DNA of 64,000 nt from Olsenella sp. An285 (GTDB taxonomy: Bacteria; Actinomycetota; Coriobacteriia; Coriobacteriales; Atopobiaceae). Shown here one piece after another: positions 8,121 to 46,991 of the stretch (within the stretch, counting starts at the first letter, position 1; the number at the start of each line of letters is the position of its first letter). The DNA is taken from positions 62,001-126,000 of the forward strand of contig NZ_NFIZ01000004.1 of NCBI RefSeq assembly GCF_002159625.1, read 5' to 3'. The notes below the pieces were generated by a model. It was not told where the DNA came from, made no database searches, and saw nothing but the letters and a program-made list of their open reading frames with translations. A program made the position numbers and the translations under genes.

Positions 8121-9101
8121 ATGGACGAGCTCGAGAGGACGCGCCTGGAGGGGTTGCCGGAGACGGGGCCAGAGTACGAGGTGCCCGAGGAGTTGGCACC
8201 GCGCCCGGACGTCGTGATGGACGGGATCTATCGCTGGAGGAGGGTGCTCGCGGCCGTCCTGGTCCTTCTCGCCCTCGTGTCCGCCCTCCCGCTGGCGGAG
8301 GTCTTCTCCAGGCCGGAGACCTATGCCGCAACCATTGAGACGCTGGACGAGAAGAAGGCAAACGTCACGGCGCTCGTTGCCTCGTCCACGGGGCTCTCCG
8401 CCGCCATCACGGCCATCCCGGACGACGTGGGCACGCCCGTTGCGGACAAGCTCATGGACGTGAGCTCCGATCTGGGCATCGTCCTCATGGTCATCTACCT
8501 CGAGAAGTACCTGCTCACGATCTTTGGCCTCGCGGCCTTCAGGGTGCTCGTCCCGGTGGGCTGCGCCCTGCTCGTGGGCTCGCTCCTTCTGATGCGGCGC
8601 TCGGCCGTGACCGGCCCCCTCGCGCGCCTTGGCGTGAAGGCCCTGCTCATGGCCGTGGTGCTGTTTGCCGTGGTCCCGGCCAGCGTGGCCGTGACGGACA
8701 TGGTGGACAGGACCTACGAGGTCTCCGCACAGGCCCAGGCCGCCGCCGAGCAGGGCGCGGACGACGCCGGAGAGCAGTCCCAGGAGGAGGGAGACGGCTC
8801 CATCCTGGACTTCATAACCGGTATCCCCGAGATGCTGGCAGACGGCGTCTCCAGCCTCACGGACGAGGTGCTCGACCAGGTCAACCGCCTCATAGAGAGC
8901 CTCGCCGTCATGATAGTCACCTCGTGCGTCATCCCCGTGGTGGTGCTCCTGTTCTTCCTGTGGGTGGCCAACGCGCTCCTGGGCGTGGACATGTCCGGCG
9001 CCCTCGGGGCCGCGCGGGGACGCGTGCGCGGCGCCGCCCGCTCCGCCCGCCGGCAGGCGCAGGCCGCCGTGGTCGGGCGTCATGGAGGGTCTTCCAGGTA
9101 G
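8121..9101 (+). CDS. Multi-pass membrane protein of unknown function
   Basis: A 326-residue protein from ATG 8121 (GGGGAGCG upstream). Hydrophobic segments lie near residues 41-61, 130-156, 170-195 and 265-290, separated by an extracytoplasmic loop (60-125) and an acidic Q/E-rich stretch near 208-225. It ends in a basic cytoplasmic tail (RGRVRGAARSARRQ). I do not recognise the family. A CTTCTCG copy lies in the first membrane helix (GTCCTTCTCG, 8272-8281). It is a single-gene unit, with a GC-rich hairpin just after the stop. Confidence 0.55.
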   Translation: MDELERTRLEGLPETGPEYEVPEELAPRPDVVMDGIYRWRRVLAAVLVLLALVSALPLAEVFSRPETYAATIETLDEKKANVTALVASSTGLSAAITAIPDDVGTPVADKLMDVSSDLGIVLMVIYLEKYLLTIFGLAAFRVLVPVGCALLVGSLLLMRRSAVTGPLARLGVKALLMAVVLFAVVPASVAVTDMVDRTYEVSAQAQAAAEQGADDAGEQSQEEGDGSILDFITGIPEMLADGVSSLTDEVLDQVNRLIESLAVMIVTSCVIPVVVLLFFLWVANALLGVDMSGALGAARGRVRGAARSARRQAQAAVVGRHGGSSR

Positions 9102-39979: not shown

Positions 39980-40077
39980 GGCGCGCCCCGTGTTTCCGAC
40001 GTCGAAAAAATGTCGCAACCAACCCTCCCAGCTGTCCTATAATGCAGGCCGGCGCTCATCGCGCTGACGTTGACAAG

Positions 40078-40162
40078 CAAGCTGGGGGTGCTCGCACGAG
40101 CTGAGAGGGACGTCTCCCAACCCCTTGAACCTGATCTGGTTTGTACCAGCGTAGGGAAGCTT
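40078..40162 (+). promoter_or_regulatory. TPP (thi-box) riboswitch
   Basis: The region contains the two invariant parts of the thiamine pyrophosphate aptamer: GCTGAGAGGGA (about 40100-40110) and CCCTTGAACCTGATCTGG (40122-40139), followed by TACCAGCGTAGGGAAGC (40144-40160). The GGGGGTGC arm begins at about 40084. It lies 106 nt upstream of ykoF and should turn off the ykoFEDC operon when TPP is abundant. Confidence 0.95.
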
Positions 40163-40267
40163 TCTCGCGCCCGTCTCCTGACGGGGCGGGGGTTTGGGGC
40201 GTGCCCCTTCAAGTGGCGGAGACCATCGCGCGGCTGGCGCGGCATCCCGCCGGACGAAGGGGAAGCC

Positions 40268-40906
40268 ATGACGCAAAGCTGCTCGTGCTCGTGCAACCGC
40301 GACGACCTGCCGTGGGCCGGTCGCGGCACGGACCTCGACATCTCGGGGTGCCGCTTCACGCTCTATCCCATGAGCGACGACTTCATCGACATCATCCTCG
40401 GCGCGCTCGAACAGACGGACACCTCGTACGTCTGGAGCCAGACCGACGCCCTCTCCACCGTGTACCGCGGCAAGCTCCCCTACGTGATGGACGCCGTCGC
40501 GGCCCTCTTTGCCAACGCGTGGCGCGAGGGGGTTCACATGGCCATCGAGGGCCAGATCTCCAAGGGCTGCCCCGGCGACATCTCGGGGGACTCCGTCCTC
40601 ACCTGCACGGGTGACGCCCCCAACGCCCGTGTGGTGGCCGAGCGGGGAGACCATCCCGTCCACGCCAAGTTCGCCCTCTACCCGCTGGGGGTCGAGGACT
40701 ACATCGACGACATCGCCCAGGTCTGGCGCCTGGCCGAACAGCGCGGCCTCGAGCCCACGAGCGTCCACTACTGCACGCGCCTCGAGGGAACCATCTCCGA
40801 GGCCTTTGCGTTTCTCCAGGAGGTCTGCGAGCTCATGGAGAAGACCGTCTCGCACTACGTCGTGCACTTCACGATGAACGTCAACAGCCCCACCGAGGAG
40901 GAGTAG
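40268..40906 (+). CDS. ykoF: YkoF-type thiamine/HMP-binding protein
   Basis: A 212-residue cytoplasmic protein from ATG 40268 with GGGGAAG upstream. It has two ferredoxin-like halves of the YkoF family: GCRFTLYPMSDDFIDIILGA near residue 28 and KFALYPLGVEDYIDDIAQVW near residue 135, each forming a ligand pocket. YkoF binds thiamine or hydroxymethylpyrimidine. It is the first gene of the riboswitch-controlled operon and is followed after 2 nt by ykoE. The N-terminal CSCSC cluster is extra. Confidence 0.93.
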   Translation: MTQSCSCSCNRDDLPWAGRGTDLDISGCRFTLYPMSDDFIDIILGALEQTDTSYVWSQTDALSTVYRGKLPYVMDAVAALFANAWREGVHMAIEGQISKGCPGDISGDSVLTCTGDAPNARVVAERGDHPVHAKFALYPLGVEDYIDDIAQVWRLAEQRGLEPTSVHYCTRLEGTISEAFAFLQEVCELMEKTVSHYVVHFTMNVNSPTEEE

Positions 40907-40908
40907 CC

Positions 40909-41517
40909 ATGGCACAAAGCAAGGGCGCGGAGAAGAAGGACTACGGCTGGAAGCTCCAGGAGATCGTCTTCGTGGCGATGAGCTGCATCGTTTTGGGTGT
41001 CGTCTACCTGGCGGCGGTCTACCTCTCCGCCTTCATCAACACCGCGGGGACGCCCGTGGGGCTGGGCTTCCTCGGCAACGAGCTGCTCTTTGGCGTGTGG
41101 TTCATGGCATCGACCTTTGCCGCCTACATCATCCAGAAGCCGGGCGTGGCGCTGGTCTCCGAGATTCTGGCCGCGCTCATCGAGGTGCTCCTGGGCAACA
41201 TGTACGGCCCCATGGTCATAGTCACCGGACTCGTCCAGGGCATCGGCTCGGAGATCGCGTTCGCGGCGTTCCGCTACCGTCGCTTCGACTGGACGACCAT
41301 GACGCTCGCGGCCTTCCTCTGCTGCGTCATCAGCTTCGTCTGGAGCTTCGTTCGCTCCGGCTACGGCGAGCTCGCCTTTGGCCTGCTCGTGCTGTTCTTC
41401 GTCATCCGCCTCGTGAGCTCCGTCGTCTTCTGCGACGTCATCTGCAAGGTCGTGGCGGACAGGCTGGCGGGCACGGGTCTGCTCAAGGGCTACGCTCTCG
41501 GCCGCTCGCATGAGTAG
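40909..41517 (+). CDS. ykoE: YkoE substrate-specificity membrane component, thiamine-precursor ECF transporter
   Basis: A 202-residue membrane protein from ATG 40909, with GAGGAG in the end of ykoF. About six helices; the family region GNMYGPMVIVTGLVQGIGSE, then IAFAAFRYRRFDW, is intact. It should be the S-component that binds the HMP/thiamine ligand for the YkoD ATPase and YkoC transmembrane subunit. Its last codons overlap the ykoD start by 8 nt. Confidence 0.94.
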   Translation: MAQSKGAEKKDYGWKLQEIVFVAMSCIVLGVVYLAAVYLSAFINTAGTPVGLGFLGNELLFGVWFMASTFAAYIIQKPGVALVSEILAALIEVLLGNMYGPMVIVTGLVQGIGSEIAFAAFRYRRFDWTTMTLAAFLCCVISFVWSFVRSGYGELAFGLLVLFFVIRLVSSVVFCDVICKVVADRLAGTGLLKGYALGRSHE

Positions 41518-43024
41518 GGCGGACGAGAAGAACGAGGGCCTCGCAGCTGCCGGGACGGGCTCCGCCGCCCCGGCGCTCGCGTGCCGCGATCTGACCTTCC
41601 GCTACGCCGAGGGGGACGAGCCCGTCTTCGAGCGGGTCTCCCTCACGGTGGGGAAGGGGGAGGTCGTGCTCGTGATGGGGGCCTCCGGCTGCGGGAAGTC
41701 CACGCTCGCGTACTGCCTGGCCGGGCTCTACCCCGACTACGCGGGCGTGCTCGAGGGCTCCGTCGAGGTCGAGGGACACCCCGTCGCCGAGCTCGGCCCG
41801 CAGGAGCGATCGCGTGCGGTCTCCATCCTCTTCCAGAACCCGGACAACCAGTTCTGCATGGACACCGTCCGCCACGAGGTCCTCTTTGCCCTGGAGAACG
41901 TGGACTACGCCGGCGACCTCGAGGGTCGGGCGGCGGAGCTCCTGCGCGAGGCCGGCCTTTGGGAGTATGCCGAGCGCCCCGTGCGCGAGCTCTCGGGCGG
42001 CACCAAGCAAAAGCTCGCCCTGGTGACGGCCCTTGCCACCGGAGCCCGCACGCTCGTCCTGGACGAGCCCTTCGCCAACCTCGACCCCATCTCGTGCAGG
42101 AGGCTCGCGGGCGAGCTGCGCACCCTCAACGAGCGGGGAATCACCCTGCTCGTGGTGGACCACCGCCCCGGTTGGTGGCTCCCCTTCGCGGACCGCGTGG
42201 TCTTCATGGAGCGCGAGGGCTCTCTCGACGAGAGGTCCTTCTCGCCCTCCGGGGTCGCCGCCCGTCGTGACGAGTTTGGGGAGCGCGGACTTTTCCTGGG
42301 GTCGGAGTGGCTGCGGGGCTACGCGCCTCCAGAGGTCTCAGCGGATGCGCCCGCGGCCCTGCGGGCGCGCGGGCTCTGCGTCGGGCACGGCAGGCGGGAC
42401 GTTCTCTCCGGGGTCTCCCTCGAGCTTCCCCGCGGAAGCGTCACGTCCATTCTCGGCACGTGCGGCTCCGGCAAGTCGACGCTGCTCATGGCCCTTGCCG
42501 GTGCCGCCAGGAGCACGGGGGACCTCAGGGTCTCCGGGCACGTGGGGCTCGTCTTCCAGAACCCCCGCTTCCAGTTCCTCGCGCTCAGCGTGCTCGAGGA
42601 GGTCATGGTGACGCTCCGCGCTGCGCGGCCCGGCTCCCCGGACGAGGAGCTCGAGCCCGAGGCGCGGGAGCTCCTGGAGGAGTTCGGGCTCTCCTCGCGC
42701 GCCGCGGCCTCGCCCTACGAGCTCTCCCAGGGCCAGCAGCGTCGCCTGGCGCTTCTCTCCATGCTCGCCGCATCCTGCGACGTGCTGCTGCTCGACGAGC
42801 CCACCTACGCCCAGGACGAGCGCTCCACGCGCTTCATCCTCGACCTCCTCATGGAGCGCGTGGCCCGCGGGCTCGCCGTCCTCGTTGCCACGCACGACGT
42901 CGAGCTCGCCCGCGCCATCTCCAACCAGGTGCTCCTTGCCGAGGACGGCGCTGTTCGCGCGCTGTCCCCGGCCGAGCTGGACCGCTACGTCGGCGAACGA
43001 GAGGAGCCCGCATGCGATCTCTGA
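41510..43024 (+). CDS. ykoD: YkoD duplicated ABC ATPase of the thiamine-precursor transporter
   Basis: A 504-residue protein from ATG 41510, inside the end of ykoE. Two ABC modules: Walker A VMGASGCGKSTLAYCL with LSGGTKQKLALVTALA (first half), and ILGTCGSGKSTLLMAL with LSQGQQRRLALLSMLA plus Walker B VLLLDEPTYAQDE (second half). The second signature, LSQGQ, is a tolerated variant. This is the energising unit for YkoE/YkoC. The first codons (DEKNEG) carry the 10-mer CGAGAAGAAC (41524-41533). Confidence 0.95.
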   Translation: MSRADEKNEGLAAAGTGSAAPALACRDLTFRYAEGDEPVFERVSLTVGKGEVVLVMGASGCGKSTLAYCLAGLYPDYAGVLEGSVEVEGHPVAELGPQERSRAVSILFQNPDNQFCMDTVRHEVLFALENVDYAGDLEGRAAELLREAGLWEYAERPVRELSGGTKQKLALVTALATGARTLVLDEPFANLDPISCRRLAGELRTLNERGITLLVVDHRPGWWLPFADRVVFMEREGSLDERSFSPSGVAARRDEFGERGLFLGSEWLRGYAPPEVSADAPAALRARGLCVGHGRRDVLSGVSLELPRGSVTSILGTCGSGKSTLLMALAGAARSTGDLRVSGHVGLVFQNPRFQFLALSVLEEVMVTLRAARPGSPDEELEPEARELLEEFGLSSRAAASPYELSQGQQRRLALLSMLAASCDVLLLDEPTYAQDERSTRFILDLLMERVARGLAVLVATHDVELARAISNQVLLAEDGAVRALSPAELDRYVGEREEPACDL

Positions 43025-43731
43025 ACCCGGGCCTCAAGCTGCTTGCGACGGTGATAGCCTCGCTCATGCTGTCGCTCACCTACAACGTGCCGGTGAACCT
43101 TGTCGTGGCGGCGTCCTGCCTCCTGGTGACGCTCCTCACCCCCGGCGTCAATCGCAGGAGGCTCGCGCTCACGATGGTCCCCTTTGCGCTCACGGCGCTC
43201 GCCTTCTTCACCACGGGGCTCTTCTTCGGGACGGCGGGCGATGCCTCGGGCGTCCAGACGAGCGCGTTTGGCCAGCGCACCCTCTACGCCACGGACTGGA
43301 CCACCGCCATGCAGCTTGCGAGCCGCGTTCTGGCGTACGGCGGCCTGGGCGTGCTCTTTGCCTTCACGAGCAACGCGTTCGAGCTCGTCATGAGCCTCAT
43401 GCAGCAGTTCAGGCTCCCGCCCAAGTTCGCCTACGGCGTCCTTGCCGCGTACCACTTCTTTCCCGTGGTGACGGAGGAGTTCACCGTCGTGGGTGCGGCG
43501 CTCAAGGTGCGCGGCGTGAGGGCGTCGCCCTTCTCGACAAAGCGGCTGCTGCCCATGCTGGCGCATGCCCTCGAGCGCTCCGAGAGCCTCGCCATGGCGA
43601 TGGAGTCTCGTGGGTTCGAGGACGGAGCGCCCCGCCGCGTGGCGTTTCGCGTGCCGGTGAGGGCGCGCGACGTCTTCTTTCTCGTTGCCGTTCCCGCGGC
43701 GATAGCCGCGGGGCTGATCCTTCTTCGCTAG
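43012..43731 (+). CDS. ykoC: YkoC transmembrane coupling component (ECF T-protein)
   Basis: A 239-residue protein from ATG 43012, overlapping the ykoD end by 13 nt. Four or five hydrophobic helices precede the cytoplasmic coupling helices with the Ala-Arg-Gly-type motifs; here the last is MESRGFEDGAPR. It transmits ATPase movement to YkoE. This ends the canonical ykoFEDC order. Confidence 0.94.
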   Translation: MRSLNPGLKLLATVIASLMLSLTYNVPVNLVVAASCLLVTLLTPGVNRRRLALTMVPFALTALAFFTTGLFFGTAGDASGVQTSAFGQRTLYATDWTTAMQLASRVLAYGGLGVLFAFTSNAFELVMSLMQQFRLPPKFAYGVLAAYHFFPVVTEEFTVVGAALKVRGVRASPFSTKRLLPMLAHALERSESLAMAMESRGFEDGAPRRVAFRVPVRARDVFFLVAVPAAIAAGLILLR

Positions 43732-43734
43732 GGG

Positions 43735-43763
43735 TTGACAGATGGCTCAGGGCAAACTGTCAA
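43735..43763. repeat. TTGACAG/CTGTCAA hairpin sharing a 13-mer with the 6-kb palindrome
   Basis: TTGACAG (43735-43741) pairs with CTGTCAA (43757-43763). The segment GGGCAAACTGTCA (43750-43762) is identical to the unit present four times in the palindrome at 6036-6158. It lies three bases after the ykoC stop and over an upstream ATG (43742) of the next gene. Confidence 0.7.
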
Positions 43764-43774
43764 AGGTGGGGGAG

Positions 43775-45037
43775 ATGGAGCGGCTGCTCTCCGAGCACCC
43801 GTCCTTCTCGCCCTTCGCGCTGCTCAAGATTTCGATGACATGCCACGGTGCCCGGCTGTCCCGCCGCGCGCTCGAGCGGCTCCAGGAGCCTGACTATCGC
43901 TTCGGCACGCCCGAGGCGGCATCCCCCGGAGGCGCCGCTTCCAACTCCTTCGACATCGAGTTCGAGGGGAGGCCCGCCGGCCTCGTCATGCCGGGGGCGG
44001 TGCTGCTGCGCGACTCGACCTTCGTCTACGTCAACTGGGGAGAGACCTACGAGGATCCCTTCCTCGTGGACTACGACCCGGAGCTCGGGGCGTTCCTGCT
44101 CAGGGAGTCCCTCGAGGGGGACCCTGCCATAGACGTGGTGGACTTCGTGCCTCGGCCGGCGATCTTTGGGCGACGGACCTCGCGCGGGACCCTCATGGAC
44201 TCGCTCGTTGACGTGAGGCCGCAGAAGCTCATCTTCACCGCGTACCGCCGCTGCAGGTTCTGGGAGGGCGGGGAGCAGTGCCTCTTCTGCGCCTTCTTCA
44301 CCAAGGACCCGGCCGACCCCGCCGTCGACCCCGAGGACCTCTACGAGACGGTCCACGCTGCGCTCGAGGAGCCGGGGAGGTACTCCGAGCTCTACCTCTC
44401 CGGCGGGACGGACTACTCCGGCTCCGAGCCCTTCGAGAACGAGGTGGAGCGCTACATCCGCTGCCTGCGCGCGATGGGCCGGGACTTCTCCGGCGGACGC
44501 TTCCCCTGCCAGCTCATGGCGCCCGCCTACCCGCGCCACCTGCTCGAGCGCATCCGGCGCGAGACGGGGATAACCGCCTACGGCGCGGACATCGAGGTCT
44601 GGGACAGGCGGCTCTTCGAGTCGCTCTGCCCCGGCAAGGCCCGCGTTGTGGGCCGCGACGAGTGGGTGAGAAGAACCGTCGACGCCGTGGAGGTCTTTGG
44701 CCGGGGGAACGTGTACACGCAGGTCGTGGCGGGGGCCGAGCTCGCGCGCCCGGGCGGGCTGCCGAGCGAGTCCGCGGCGCTCGCGTCCAACCTCGAGGCG
44801 TGCGAGTTCTTTGCGGAGCATGACGTGAACTGCATGTTCATCATCTGGCGACCGCACCGTCGCGCGCTCCTGGGCTGGCAGGAGATCCCCTCCGTGGACT
44901 ACTACGTCCGGCTGGCGGAGGGCTTCCACGACATTCGCGCCGCGCACGGGCTCTTCTCCGCCGACGACGACTACAAGACGTGCGGGAACCACCCCTGTGC
45001 GGACCTCGAGAGGACGGACGAGAGATGCTGGGCGTAG
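43775..45037 (+). CDS. Radical SAM protein with unusual Cys spacing, in the TPP-regulated cluster
   Basis: A 420-residue protein. I chose ATG 43775, with AGGTGG five bases upstream, over ATG 43742, which lies in a hairpin without a clear ribosome site. The likely iron-sulfur site is YRRCRFWEGGEQCLFCAFF, a C-x8-C-x2-C spacing instead of the classic C-x3-C-x2-C. Downstream, LYLSGGTDYSGSEP and TAYGADIEVWDRRLFESLCP fit a partial radical SAM TIM barrel with the glycine-rich SAM strand. Late cysteines (CGNHPC) could hold another cluster. It follows ykoC after 43 nt, suggesting a role in cofactor (perhaps thiamine-related) salvage; this is inference. Confidence 0.75.
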   Translation: MERLLSEHPSFSPFALLKISMTCHGARLSRRALERLQEPDYRFGTPEAASPGGAASNSFDIEFEGRPAGLVMPGAVLLRDSTFVYVNWGETYEDPFLVDYDPELGAFLLRESLEGDPAIDVVDFVPRPAIFGRRTSRGTLMDSLVDVRPQKLIFTAYRRCRFWEGGEQCLFCAFFTKDPADPAVDPEDLYETVHAALEEPGRYSELYLSGGTDYSGSEPFENEVERYIRCLRAMGRDFSGGRFPCQLMAPAYPRHLLERIRRETGITAYGADIEVWDRRLFESLCPGKARVVGRDEWVRRTVDAVEVFGRGNVYTQVVAGAELARPGGLPSESAALASNLEACEFFAEHDVNCMFIIWRPHRRALLGWQEIPSVDYYVRLAEGFHDIRAAHGLFSADDDYKTCGNHPCADLERTDERCWA

Positions 45038-45534
45038 GGGACTTCCTCCCGGTGGGCGAGGAGCTGGCGGCGGCGCTGGGCGATGGGGTGGCGCGCGCGG
45101 CGGTGACGGTGCCGGGGCACGATGGCGCGATTGCCTGCGACCTGCTGCTCGTTCGCGCGAGCGACGCCGGGGCGGGAAAGCTCGCGCTCGTGCTGGCCGT
45201 TCGCGAGGAGAGGACCGACCTCGGCGCCGGGCTCGTGCGCGGGCTCTGGTACGACGCTCCCGTGGAGGTGCGGGCGTGCCTGGGGGACGGAACGTCCTGG
45301 CTCGTTGTGGCGCGCGTGTGGCGCTGCTGCATCGCGGGGAGGCTCTTCTCGGACGTCCTGGGGCGCGAGCGCACGGCGGGCACGGAGGATGTGGCCTCCG
45401 CGTGGGAGCTGCGCGTGCTCGGCGCGAGGAGGGTCGAGGGGTCCGACGTCCCTGCGGCCGTCGAGCCGTCCCGGGCGCCGCGCGAGGAGCTCCACCTGGA
45501 CGTCCTCGCACGGCGCGGCGGGCTCTCTGGCTAG
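45025..45534 (+). CDS. Conserved hypothetical protein, possibly split-barrel fold
   Basis: A 169-residue protein from ATG 45025, which overlaps the radical SAM gene by 13 nt, so the two are translationally coupled. It is beta-rich and soluble (DLLLVRASDAGAGKLALVLA, YDAPVEVRACLGDGTSWLVV, RVWRCCIAGRLFSDVL), loosely like an FMN-binding split barrel, but no certain motif is visible. Its tight pairing with the radical SAM protein suggests a shared reaction. Its stop shares the palindromic CTAG with the convergent dipeptidase. Confidence 0.5.
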   Translation: MLGVGDFLPVGEELAAALGDGVARAAVTVPGHDGAIACDLLLVRASDAGAGKLALVLAVREERTDLGAGLVRGLWYDAPVEVRACLGDGTSWLVVARVWRCCIAGRLFSDVLGRERTAGTEDVASAWELRVLGARRVEGSDVPAAVEPSRAPREELHLDVLARRGGLSG

Positions 45535-46991
45535 CCGTCGCTCCTGGAGAAGGCGTTTCTCATGCGCATGCTGGCCTCGTAGAGGACCTTGTCGAGCAGG
45601 TCCTCCGTCTGGCGGCGGCACTCGTCCGCGATCGCGGCGTTGCACGCCTCGAGGCTGCCGCCCTTTGCGTCGCACGCGCGGATGAGCGCCGCGCAGCGTG
45701 CGGGGAGCGCCTGCTGATAGCGCTCCACGTGCGGCAGGCACGCGCCGTAGGCGGCGTCGGCGAGCGCGCCCACCAGGCGGTTTGCCCAGTAGAAGCTCTC
45801 GCTCGTCACGCGCGTGGTGGTGTCCTCGAAGTACGCCGGAGTCTCCGTGACGCTGGCGTAGAGCGGAACGAGCGCGTTGAAGGCGTTGGAGCCGTACGCG
45901 ATCCACTGCAGAGCCGCGCGCTCCGGGGCGACGTCGGGGCGCAGCTGCAGGACGGCGAGCTGGCTGTTGCGGTTGATGCCGATGGGCCGGTAGCGTCCGC
46001 GCACGCCTGCGTGAGCGGGGTTGGTCCCGTACGGGTCGTAGGGCGTGCCCTGGTAGTGGAGGGAGAGGACGTACTTGACGTCCTCGATGGTCACCTTGCG
46101 CTCTGGCTCGCGGCACCAGGGGATGCGGTCGCTCTCCGGGCCGAAGTCCGCCGCCGGTGCCGCCGTGTCCCAGGGGCCTGCGTGCGGGCTCAGGAAGCGC
46201 TGCATCGCCCAAGCGCGCGGCGTGTTGTAGACGTGGTCGGAGTCCGAGTGGCTGCCAAACGCCTCGCGCGGGTTGAAGTGGGAGCCGCGCACGCCGAGCG
46301 TGAGGTCGAGGTGGTTGGCTGCCATCCACTCGCGAAGGTCCGCGGAGCAGAGGTGCTCCCCCTGTGCTCCGAAGGCGTCATCGAGATCGAAGTCGTCGAT
46401 GCCGAGCTGGTTGGGCATGGTGACGTAGGAGTCGTCCGGGACGCGGCGCGCGATCCAGTGGTGGCCTCCCACGGTCTCGAGCCACCAGATCTCGTCCGCG
46501 TCCGAGAAGGCGACGCCGTTCATCTCATAGGTGCCGCAGCGCTCCAGAAGCGCGCCCAGGCGAAGCACGCCGTCGCGGGCGCTCGTGGCGTAGGGCAGGA
46601 CCAGCGTGACCATGTCCTCCTCGCCGATGCCGCCGGGGGTGCCGGTTGCGGCGTCGTAGCGCACGAGCGGGTCCGCGGCGAGCACGCGCTCGTTGGTGGT
46701 GATGGTCTCCGTGGCGCTCATGCCCACGTTGCGCTCGTTGAAGCCGGCCTCCTCCCAGAGGCCCTCCTTGAGGTCGGCGTTGGGCATGGCGGTGTAGCGC
46801 ATGCCGGGCTCGGAGAGCTCGATCTCCAGGTGCGAGATGACGCTCCTGTAGACAGCGCCAGCCTTAGGCGCCTCGCGCGCCACGAAGCGCTTGGGGCAGA
46901 ACTCCCCGTTGGAGGAGTCCTCGTTGCGGGCGACGATCGTTGAGCCGTCGTAGCTGGCCTTCTTGCCAACAAGGATGGTGGTGCAGGGCAT
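45531..46991 (-). CDS. C69-family dipeptidase
   Basis: A 486-residue protein from ATG 46991 with AGAAGGAGGC upstream. The N-terminus is MPCTTILVGKKASYDGSTIV; Cys 3 is the catalytic nucleophile exposed after autoprocessing in this Ntn-hydrolase family. Other family features are ARNEDSSNGEFCPKRF and the EEDMVTLVLPYATSARDGV region. It cleaves dipeptides in the cytoplasm or cell envelope. The stop overlaps the convergent gene stop (shared CTAG), leaving no room for a terminator. Confidence 0.93.
   Translation of the reverse strand: MPCTTILVGKKASYDGSTIVARNEDSSNGEFCPKRFVAREAPKAGAVYRSVISHLEIELSEPGMRYTAMPNADLKEGLWEEAGFNERNVGMSATETITTNERVLAADPLVRYDAATGTPGGIGEEDMVTLVLPYATSARDGVLRLGALLERCGTYEMNGVAFSDADEIWWLETVGGHHWIARRVPDDSYVTMPNQLGIDDFDLDDAFGAQGEHLCSADLREWMAANHLDLTLGVRGSHFNPREAFGSHSDSDHVYNTPRAWAMQRFLSPHAGPWDTAAPAADFGPESDRIPWCREPERKVTIEDVKYVLSLHYQGTPYDPYGTNPAHAGVRGRYRPIGINRNSQLAVLQLRPDVAPERAALQWIAYGSNAFNALVPLYASVTETPAYFEDTTTRVTSESFYWANRLVGALADAAYGACLPHVERYQQALPARCAALIRACDAKGGSLEACNAAIADECRRQTEDLLDKVLYEASMRMRNAFSRSDG

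Follow-up and report, generated by a model that had tools for sequence, protein, structure and literature searches.

A variant radical SAM protein and its predicted split-barrel partner in a TPP riboswitch-controlled YkoFEDC operon, a candidate module for vitamin B1 salvage

The 64,000-nucleotide (nt) stretch of the genome of Olsenella sp. An285 analyzed here (contig NZ_NFIZ01000004.1, positions 62,001 to 126,000 of the forward strand; referred to below as the window) contains a thiamine pyrophosphate (TPP) riboswitch followed by the thiamine transporter genes ykoF, ykoE, ykoD, and ykoC, and the same operon is continued by two further genes, one encoding a radical S-adenosylmethionine (SAM) protein with a variant cluster motif and the other a small partner protein. 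The novelty lies in this TPP-controlled, patchily distributed module and in the fusions of its components, and not in the cysteine spacing of the radical SAM protein. Sequence comparisons present the pair as a novel lineage within a known class of proteins and as a candidate for a role in vitamin B1 salvage. Whether the operon as a whole serves, through its importer and the pair, as a salvage unit for a non-standard thiamine vitamer is in our estimate an evenly balanced question.

All elements of the operon lie on the forward (+) strand. The riboswitch at its head (THI element, 40074..40174; Rfam RF00059, 76.4 bits at a gathering score of 54.3) is followed by ykoF (40268..40906), the 212 aa product of which, a thiamine- and hydroxymethylpyrimidine (HMP)-binding protein, matches Pfam PF07615 (Ykof, 1.4e-48) and the YkoF protein of Bacillus subtilis (1s7h, 4.3e-38). 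The next genes encode the S component of an energy-coupling factor (ECF) transporter (ykoE, 40909..41517, 202 aa; PF09819, alignment to 5edl), a fused double ECF ATPase with two ATP-binding cassette (ABC) ATPase stretches (ykoD, 41510..43024, 504 aa; PF00005), and a CbiQ-like T component (ykoC, 43012..43731, 239 aa; PF02361, 1.4e-20). The riboswitch, YkoF, YkoE, the double ATPase, and the CbiQ-like T component identify the window transporter as one of the YkoFEDC type. The radical SAM gene (43742..45037, 431 aa) starts 10 nt after the stop codon of ykoC and overlaps by 13 nt the gene of the partner (45025..45534, 169 aa), downstream of which there is a convergent gene of a C69 dipeptidase. A preliminary description of this region had correctly recognized the upstream TPP riboswitch and the adjoining 169-residue partner, but had placed the start of the radical SAM gene at 43775, 43 nt from ykoFEDC; we prefer the start at 43742, because two conserved residues, K8 (14/14 relatives) and E11 (5/5), precede position 43775. 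The gap of only 10 nt that separates ykoC from the radical SAM gene is too short to accommodate a promoter or a terminator. An element isolating the pair from the transporter genes, which the preliminary description had considered as evidence against its proposal, did not appear in a scan of positions 43400-45700 either: the consensus search for promoter-like sites found none, and three terminator-like sites (0.9 expected) are all within ykoC.

The loci used for comparison were found by the sequence of the radical SAM protein, and not by the riboswitch. In a sample of 296 Coriobacteriia genomes that includes the host, the clade of this protein is represented by the host and four further genomes. 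A search of genome contigs with a single protein as a query found no relative, and with an alignment as a query it gave 13 loci, two of which belong to Coriobacteriia genomes already counted. One further member was identified among 392 Lachnospirales genomes, so that the clade comprises 17 genomes, window included. In 17/17 of them, a TPP riboswitch scoring above the gathering score and the genes of YkoE, YkoD, and YkoC adjoin the radical SAM gene, in three different orders, which is the outcome of the gene-neighborhood survey advised in the preliminary description and agrees with its placement of an unassigned radical SAM reaction in the thiamine regulon. The Absicoccus locus L024, in which ykoE is cut and no match to YkoF was found, is included in this number. 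The order of the window (riboswitch, ykoFEDC, radical SAM gene) is conserved in 13 of the 17 genomes; in three (L022, L023, and L024) the radical SAM gene directly follows the riboswitch and precedes the transporter genes, and in one (L108) the riboswitch is followed by ykoEDCF and the radical SAM gene. The partner is encoded by a separate adjacent gene in 10 genomes, forms a fusion with the radical SAM protein in four (G136, G175, L016, and L108), and is joined to YkoF in one (L022); in the two remaining genomes it could not be assessed, L024 being broken and L026 ending at a contig edge. Pairwise distances between the radical SAM proteins are correlated with those between the YkoE proteins of the same loci (r 0.805, 15 loci, 0/9999 permutations as high), which speaks for their co-inheritance. 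Loci L024 and L026 are counted in the linkage analysis and stand outside the alignments, this 15-locus test, and the comparison of YkoE proteins described below.

The module is rare (5/296 Coriobacteriia and 2/392 Lachnospirales genomes). Matches to YkoE with E < 1e-25 were present in seven of the 296 Coriobacteriia genomes (21/296 at E 0.001), and five of these seven carry the pair. Within the genus of the host, the radical SAM gene is confined to the window genome (1 of 31), and no other genome of this genus in the class sample had a YkoE match, which suggests that the module was gained as a unit. The regions flanking the module differ among the three Coriobacteriia carrier genera, that of the window included; G136 and G175, which belong to one genus, share theirs. 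Altogether, 18/392 Lachnospirales genomes matched the radical SAM protein, two with members of the thiamine-linked clade and 16 with distant relatives; the regions around the genes of the latter were examined for 15 of the 16, with the weakest match, G479, left out. Two other candidates were set aside: G081 as a likely chance match (E 5e-4, 26% over ~150 residues), and G048 as a distant variant_rSAM protein (26%) without the operon.

The cluster motif of the window protein, C171-RFWEGGEQ-C180-LF-C183, has the spacing C-x8-C-x2-C, and its three cysteines are invariant in 14/14 aligned relatives. The classic C-x3-C-x2-C spacing is not present in the window protein, as had been pointed out in the preliminary description, but the variant spacing is not itself new and was rejected as a mark of novelty: other members of NF045502, such as L003 (172.2 bits) and proteins of the L112 group (397-464 bits), share it and have other neighbors. 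The model NF045502 (variant_rSAM; 155.5 bits at a cut-off of 125) is the sole NCBIfam model that the window protein matches above the cut-off, and it is a domain model without an assigned reaction; assignment to a known family of unrelated role, which the preliminary description had held against its own proposal, was thus not what the profile search returned. The TIGR04043 family (MSMEG_0568) was rejected (41.5 bits at a cut-off of 303.7). No Pfam family, PF04055 included, matched the protein up to E 0.1. This does not exclude the protein from the radical SAM superfamily, as variant cysteine spacings occur in this superfamily and relatives of the window protein do match PF04055, L112 over the cut-off and L109a and L111 under it. 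Three additional cysteines, Cys296, Cys354, and Cys414, are invariant in the 14 relatives and could be hydrogen donors or ligands of a second cluster; the first and the last of them occur in 4/4 proteins of the sister clade described below as well.

A search of solved structures with the sequence of the radical SAM protein gave only chance-level matches. Its AlphaFold model (predicted local distance difference test score, pLDDT, 83.6; predicted template modeling score, pTM, 0.87) has a radical SAM barrel. The structures most similar to the model are those of lipoyl synthases (4u0o, Z 17.8, root-mean-square deviation (rmsd) 3.2, 241 residues aligned), followed at Z 15-16 by HydE, HydG, NosL, ThiH, MqnE, and biotin synthase (rmsd 3-5 over ~220-255 residues), with ThiH 7pd2 at Z 15.4 (rmsd 3.6, 235 aligned). 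Close to their N terminus, lipoyl synthases carry a further cluster motif, C-x4-C-x5-C. This motif is missing from the window protein, in which C34 is the only cysteine before residue 171, and the identity with lipoyl synthase was rejected. The structural matches of the model indicate its fold and not its reaction. By its three-cysteine motif and predicted TIM-type barrel, the protein is assigned to the radical SAM superfamily.

The AlphaFold model of the partner (pLDDT 88.7) is most similar to HupZ 7kq2 (Z 11.7, rmsd 3.3, 115 residues aligned), to the flavin mononucleotide (FMN)-binding protein 3in6 (Z 10.9, rmsd 2.8, 118 aligned), and to HutZ 3tgv (Z 9.7, rmsd 3.4, 114 aligned). At Z ~10 it matches numerous proteins that bind FMN or haem. 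Foldseek alone found no match to the model at E 0.001, and the partner profile did not match any solved structure by sequence. A profile of the partners linked to SsuA-type importers (see below) gave four weak matches to solved structures (E 0.23-0.52), all of them to HupZ or to a flavin-binding split barrel. The predicted fold of the partner is that of the FMN-binding split barrel, and the protein is probably flavin- or ligand-binding.

When 31 radical SAM sequences were placed in a tree, the thiamine-linked proteins formed a branch (support 100/99) next to a branch of proteins linked to SsuA-type importers (98/95); the tree has long branches, and only these two clades were used from it. The sister clade consists of four proteins encoded at the Lachnospirales loci L109-L111, which are 29-36% identical to the window protein and are also members of NF045502. 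They share with it the C[PH]GK and DD[YF]RRCG motifs, the association with an ABC importer, and a partner-like gene directly downstream, but differ in the spacing of the cluster motif (C-x9-C-x2-C as compared to C-x8-C-x2-C), in the type of importer, which in the window is YkoFEDC, and in the lack of a TPP riboswitch at their loci. Their binding protein is of the SsuA family, with a score above the cut-off at the loci L110 and L111 and slightly below it at L109, and a metK-like gene is present at two of the three loci. The partner-like genes of L110 and L111 were identified by tblastn as well as by position and alignment, and those of L109 by position and alignment only; all of them were included in the profile search for partners, which hence is no independent test. 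As both proteins of the pair thus have counterparts that accompany SsuA-type importers, the combination of importer, radical SAM protein, and partner can be regarded as recurrent. Locus L109 (468-11579) has a single SsuA-like importer cluster for two pairs of radical SAM protein and partner, with the metK-like gene adjacent; genes of a class-V aminotransferase (NifS-like) and of a NifU_N protein lie upstream, and a YeiH-like gene, below the cut-off, is nearby. This cluster is a candidate locus for anaerobic organosulfur use. At L110, a GA-cis RNA (RF02987, 68.7 bits; 8257-8352) is located between the variant radical SAM gene and the partner-like gene, with the SsuA-type importer alongside, and it may control the partner-like gene.

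More distant relatives within NF045502 adjoin nitrogenase-like genes (identified with Pfam at L112 and by eye elsewhere) and importers with the NMT1 domain; the SsuA model scored only 52 bits at L112 (cut-off 163.5). At some of these loci there are also genes of a PNPOx-type split barrel and of a phosphorylase-family protein resembling methylthioadenosine (MTA) nucleosidase. At five of the loci, all from Lachnospirales (L112, L113, L114, L117, and L119), nitrogenase-like genes are combined with NMT1-type importers and with variant radical SAM genes, of which L113 and L114 have two copies each. Some of these clusters also contain metK and the genes of a nucleosidase-like protein and a PNPOx-type split barrel, and the five clusters may encode isethionate reductase or its relative. 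What the thiamine-linked clade and its relatives have in common is an importer accompanied by a radical SAM protein of the variant type and, in many cases, by a split barrel or a partner. Organosulfur substrates, of which thiamine is one, may recur across these relatives, and carbon-sulfur or ring chemistry is, by this analogy, no more than a reasonable guess for the pair.

The importer itself provides a hint of its ligand. In B. subtilis YkoE, Trp49, Glu77, and Gln95 hold the pyrimidine of thiamine, Asp131 and Tyr46 contact the thiazole ring, and the thiazole contacts are less conserved than the pyrimidine ones (PMC5037267). The window YkoE retains Trp49, Glu77, and Gln95, and has Phe in place of Tyr46 and Ser in place of Asp131. 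The 15 YkoE proteins that accompany the pair all have Glu77 and Gln95, and 12 have Trp49; position 131 is occupied by Ser in 12, His in two, and Asp in one of the 15. The same position is acidic (Asp or Glu) in 22 of 23 other YkoE proteins, which comprise the B. subtilis chain and those from 22 loci where the stretch retrieved gave no radical SAM match. The single linked YkoE that keeps Asp131, that of L108, is accompanied by the only one of 15 radical SAM proteins without the C-terminal motif DDYxxCGNHP. This pattern of residues hints at a ligand that has the pyrimidine of thiamine and lacks its positively charged ring.

Fifteen carrier genomes were searched for genes of thiamine metabolism; the genome of L024 was not among them, and G360 was added in the case of TenA only (16 genomes). 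Thiamine pyrophosphokinase was matched in 15/15 carriers, including the host, the genome of which is 95% complete. Matches to enzymes of synthesis and precursor use were scarce: ThiC in 1/15, ThiE over the cut-off in 3/15, one of them marginal (5/15 at E 0.001), the ThiM-type HK over the cut-off in 2/15 (4/15 at E 0.001), and TenA in 3/16. None of these four enzymes had a match at E 0.001 in the host or in the remaining Coriobacteriia carriers, four in number; the genomes of two of them consist of a single contig. The host probably uses only ready-made thiamine, and in most carriers, given the unmatched precursor-using enzymes and the universal pyrophosphokinase, thiamine is the only useful end product. 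A second riboswitch-like site is present in 13/15 carrier genomes. It precedes a ThiT-like frame, as judged by eye, at L052 and L065, and ThiW-like and ThiM-like genes, also recognized by eye, at L066 (genome G330), where the ThiM match was confirmed by profile. At the Coriobacteriia loci L070, L072, and L075, the second site (56.8, 52, and 42.7 bits, respectively, at a cut-off of 54.3) is followed by genes of a small Thiamine_BP protein (PF01910) and, as judged by eye, a ThiXY-like transporter, and these genomes have no ThiE match.

Repair of thiamine, or salvage of altered thiamine, is the reading that we prefer, at about an even chance of being right. TPP riboswitches allow the expression of genes when TPP is scarce, and low TPP would thus permit expression of the operon. 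A compound with the pyrimidine of thiamine and an altered, possibly uncharged, thiazole side would then be imported by YkoEDC and bound by YkoF. The radical SAM protein, presumably with the use of a 5'-deoxyadenosyl radical generated at its [4Fe-4S] cluster, would act on this compound with the assistance of the split-barrel partner and its putative flavin or other ligand, and the product would be thiamine, to be converted to TPP by thiamine pyrophosphokinase. We infer the substrate, product, cofactor, direction, and radical chemistry of this scheme from the observed operon structure, riboswitch, linkage, fusions, lack of matches to precursor-using enzymes in the host, presence of a pyrophosphokinase match, and change in YkoE, together with the predicted folds. 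A more specific version, which we put forward tentatively and consider to fall clearly short of an even chance, is that the YkoFEDC variants without the acidic thiazole contact import altered uncharged thiamine (e.g., oxidized or ring-opened), that the thiazolium is restored by the pair through chemistry on the ring or on carbon-sulfur bonds, and that anaerobes with pyrophosphokinase only can in this way live on the damaged vitamin.

Several observations weigh against the repair or salvage of altered thiamine. YkoE of B. subtilis binds thiamine at ~4.5 nM (PMC5037267), and the importer of the window may for this reason simply carry thiamine. The Enterococcus gallinarum plasmid L175 encodes YkoFEDC without the pair, and its YkoE, the single non-acidic one of the 23, also lacks Asp131 (Gly), so that the loss of this residue is not specific to the pair. 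The changes of residue 131 represent only one or two events on the tree. Moreover, 17 of the 23 other YkoE proteins lack Glu77 and most are distant, and of the six that have Glu77, five are acidic at position 131; the absence of the pair from the loci of these proteins was judged only within the stretches retrieved, some from short contigs, and B. subtilis was not tested. Correlations of the radical SAM distances with those of the yko proteins (r 0.75-0.81) are below the correlations among the yko proteins themselves (0.91-0.97). The pair is also subject to decay. At L024 (7950-9341, Absicoccus porci), the radical SAM frame is interrupted and runs into the cut ykoE, which, with the missing YkoF match, shows that the operon decays in some lineages, and the radical SAM protein of L108 has lost its conserved C-terminal motif. 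Among the carriers, G330 has ThiC, ThiE, and ThiM, and G323 has ThiE and ThiM. In at least four of the 10 Clostridia carriers (L057, L063, L064, and L068), a second TPP riboswitch precedes the gene of ThiT (PF09515), and plain thiamine import is thereby covered in these carriers. Finally, none of the 14 partners matched a Pfam family (PNPOx or other) at E 0.001, with one chance match at E 0.27.

The alternative that survives best, although we consider it unlikely, is that the pair is a maturase and not a small-molecule enzyme, the radical SAM protein modifying or activating a protein required at low thiamine, be it the importer, YkoF, or an enzyme that spares TPP. Radical SAM activases are common, and the fusion of the partner to YkoF at L022 would suit such a function. 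In the case of the radical SAM protein IsrB, too, the authors leave open whether it acts on the substrate or activates the enzyme (PMC11423573). However, no obvious client gene is present beside the window operon (gene list for 40-48 kb), the variation of the flanks among the three Coriobacteriia carrier genera does not point to one, and the sister clade travels with importers, which favors an imported substrate.

More doubtful is the proposal that the pair makes HMP or hydroxyethylthiazole (HET) usable by a new route. The transporter YkoEDC is also classed as an HMP transporter in PMC6593275, and the retention of the pyrimidine contacts of YkoE with the loss of the thiazole ones would be consistent with this ligand. 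Yet HMP needs ThiE and a source of thiazole, and ThiE and the ThiM-type HK are over the cut-off in few carriers and unmatched in the five Coriobacteriia ones. Because the host and most carriers have no matches to the enzymes that use HMP or HET, precursor salvage, which the preliminary description had offered as an example of the possible role, appears improbable.

We regard as very unlikely that the pair serves catabolism or sulfur scavenging by removing sulfur or carbon from thiamine or its breakdown product, a role that is also possible for its relatives near SsuA-type importers. The location of the sister clade next to importers of the SsuA family (and, at two of its three loci, to a metK-like gene) would fit such chemistry, and so would the nitrogenase-like genes and NMT1-domain importers that adjoin the genes of more distant relatives, but TPP riboswitches normally shut genes off at high TPP, which is the opposite of a catabolic need, and most carriers appear to be thiamine-dependent. 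Hardly credible is the chance hitch-hiking of a pair with a role unrelated to thiamine in an operon that it merely shares, since the rarity of the clade and the existence of YkoFEDC operons without the pair are outweighed by the linkage in 17/17 genomes across three gene orders and by the fusions of the partner to YkoF and to the radical SAM protein.

The enzymes ThiC and ThiH of thiamine metabolism are radical SAM enzymes, and repair or salvage of altered thiamine by the pair, if true, would mean further radical SAM chemistry in this metabolism beside them. One branch of the radical SAM proteins with the variant C-x8-C-x2-C motif would also gain a testable role. In the gut, bacteria exchange thiamine and compete for it, and 354 of 2,228 genomes were scored as those of users of intact thiamine only (PMC6593275). 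If the pair widens the range of usable vitamers, such predictions of intact-thiamine-only use will change.

Among the literature matches listed, in which subscription papers are thinly covered, none links a radical SAM protein with a YkoFEDC operon, and comparisons can be made with systems that are alike in part. While the window protein matches NF045502 above the cut-off, the thiamine-linked proteins form a separate branch of this class, with the extra invariant Cys296, Cys354, and Cys414. IsrB of Rhodobacter capsulatus is encoded beside nitrogenase-like genes and is essential for anaerobic use of isethionate, which is imported by SsuCAB (PMC11423573). It shares with the thiamine-linked pair the setting of a radical SAM protein and an importer, but no nitrogenase-like HDK genes are present beside the window radical SAM gene, the neighbors of which are ykoFEDC, the partner gene, and the C69 dipeptidase gene; distant relatives of the window protein also adjoin nitrogenase-like genes. 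The HutW-HutZ and HmuW systems, the latter described as part of the haem operon of an anaerobe in PMC10404700, resemble the module in combining a radical SAM enzyme and, in the case of HutZ, a split barrel in a nutrient-uptake operon; their nutrient is haem and not thiamine, and the resemblance is an analogy only. Another parallel is offered by the BioB-only biotin auxotrophs, in which, according to PMC6593275, a lone radical SAM enzyme is proposed to be retained for the conversion of imported dethiobiotin to the vitamin. Like the pair in the reading that we prefer, BioB would in these bacteria serve an imported vitamer, the differences being that the vitamin is biotin and that the reaction is a known sulfur insertion.

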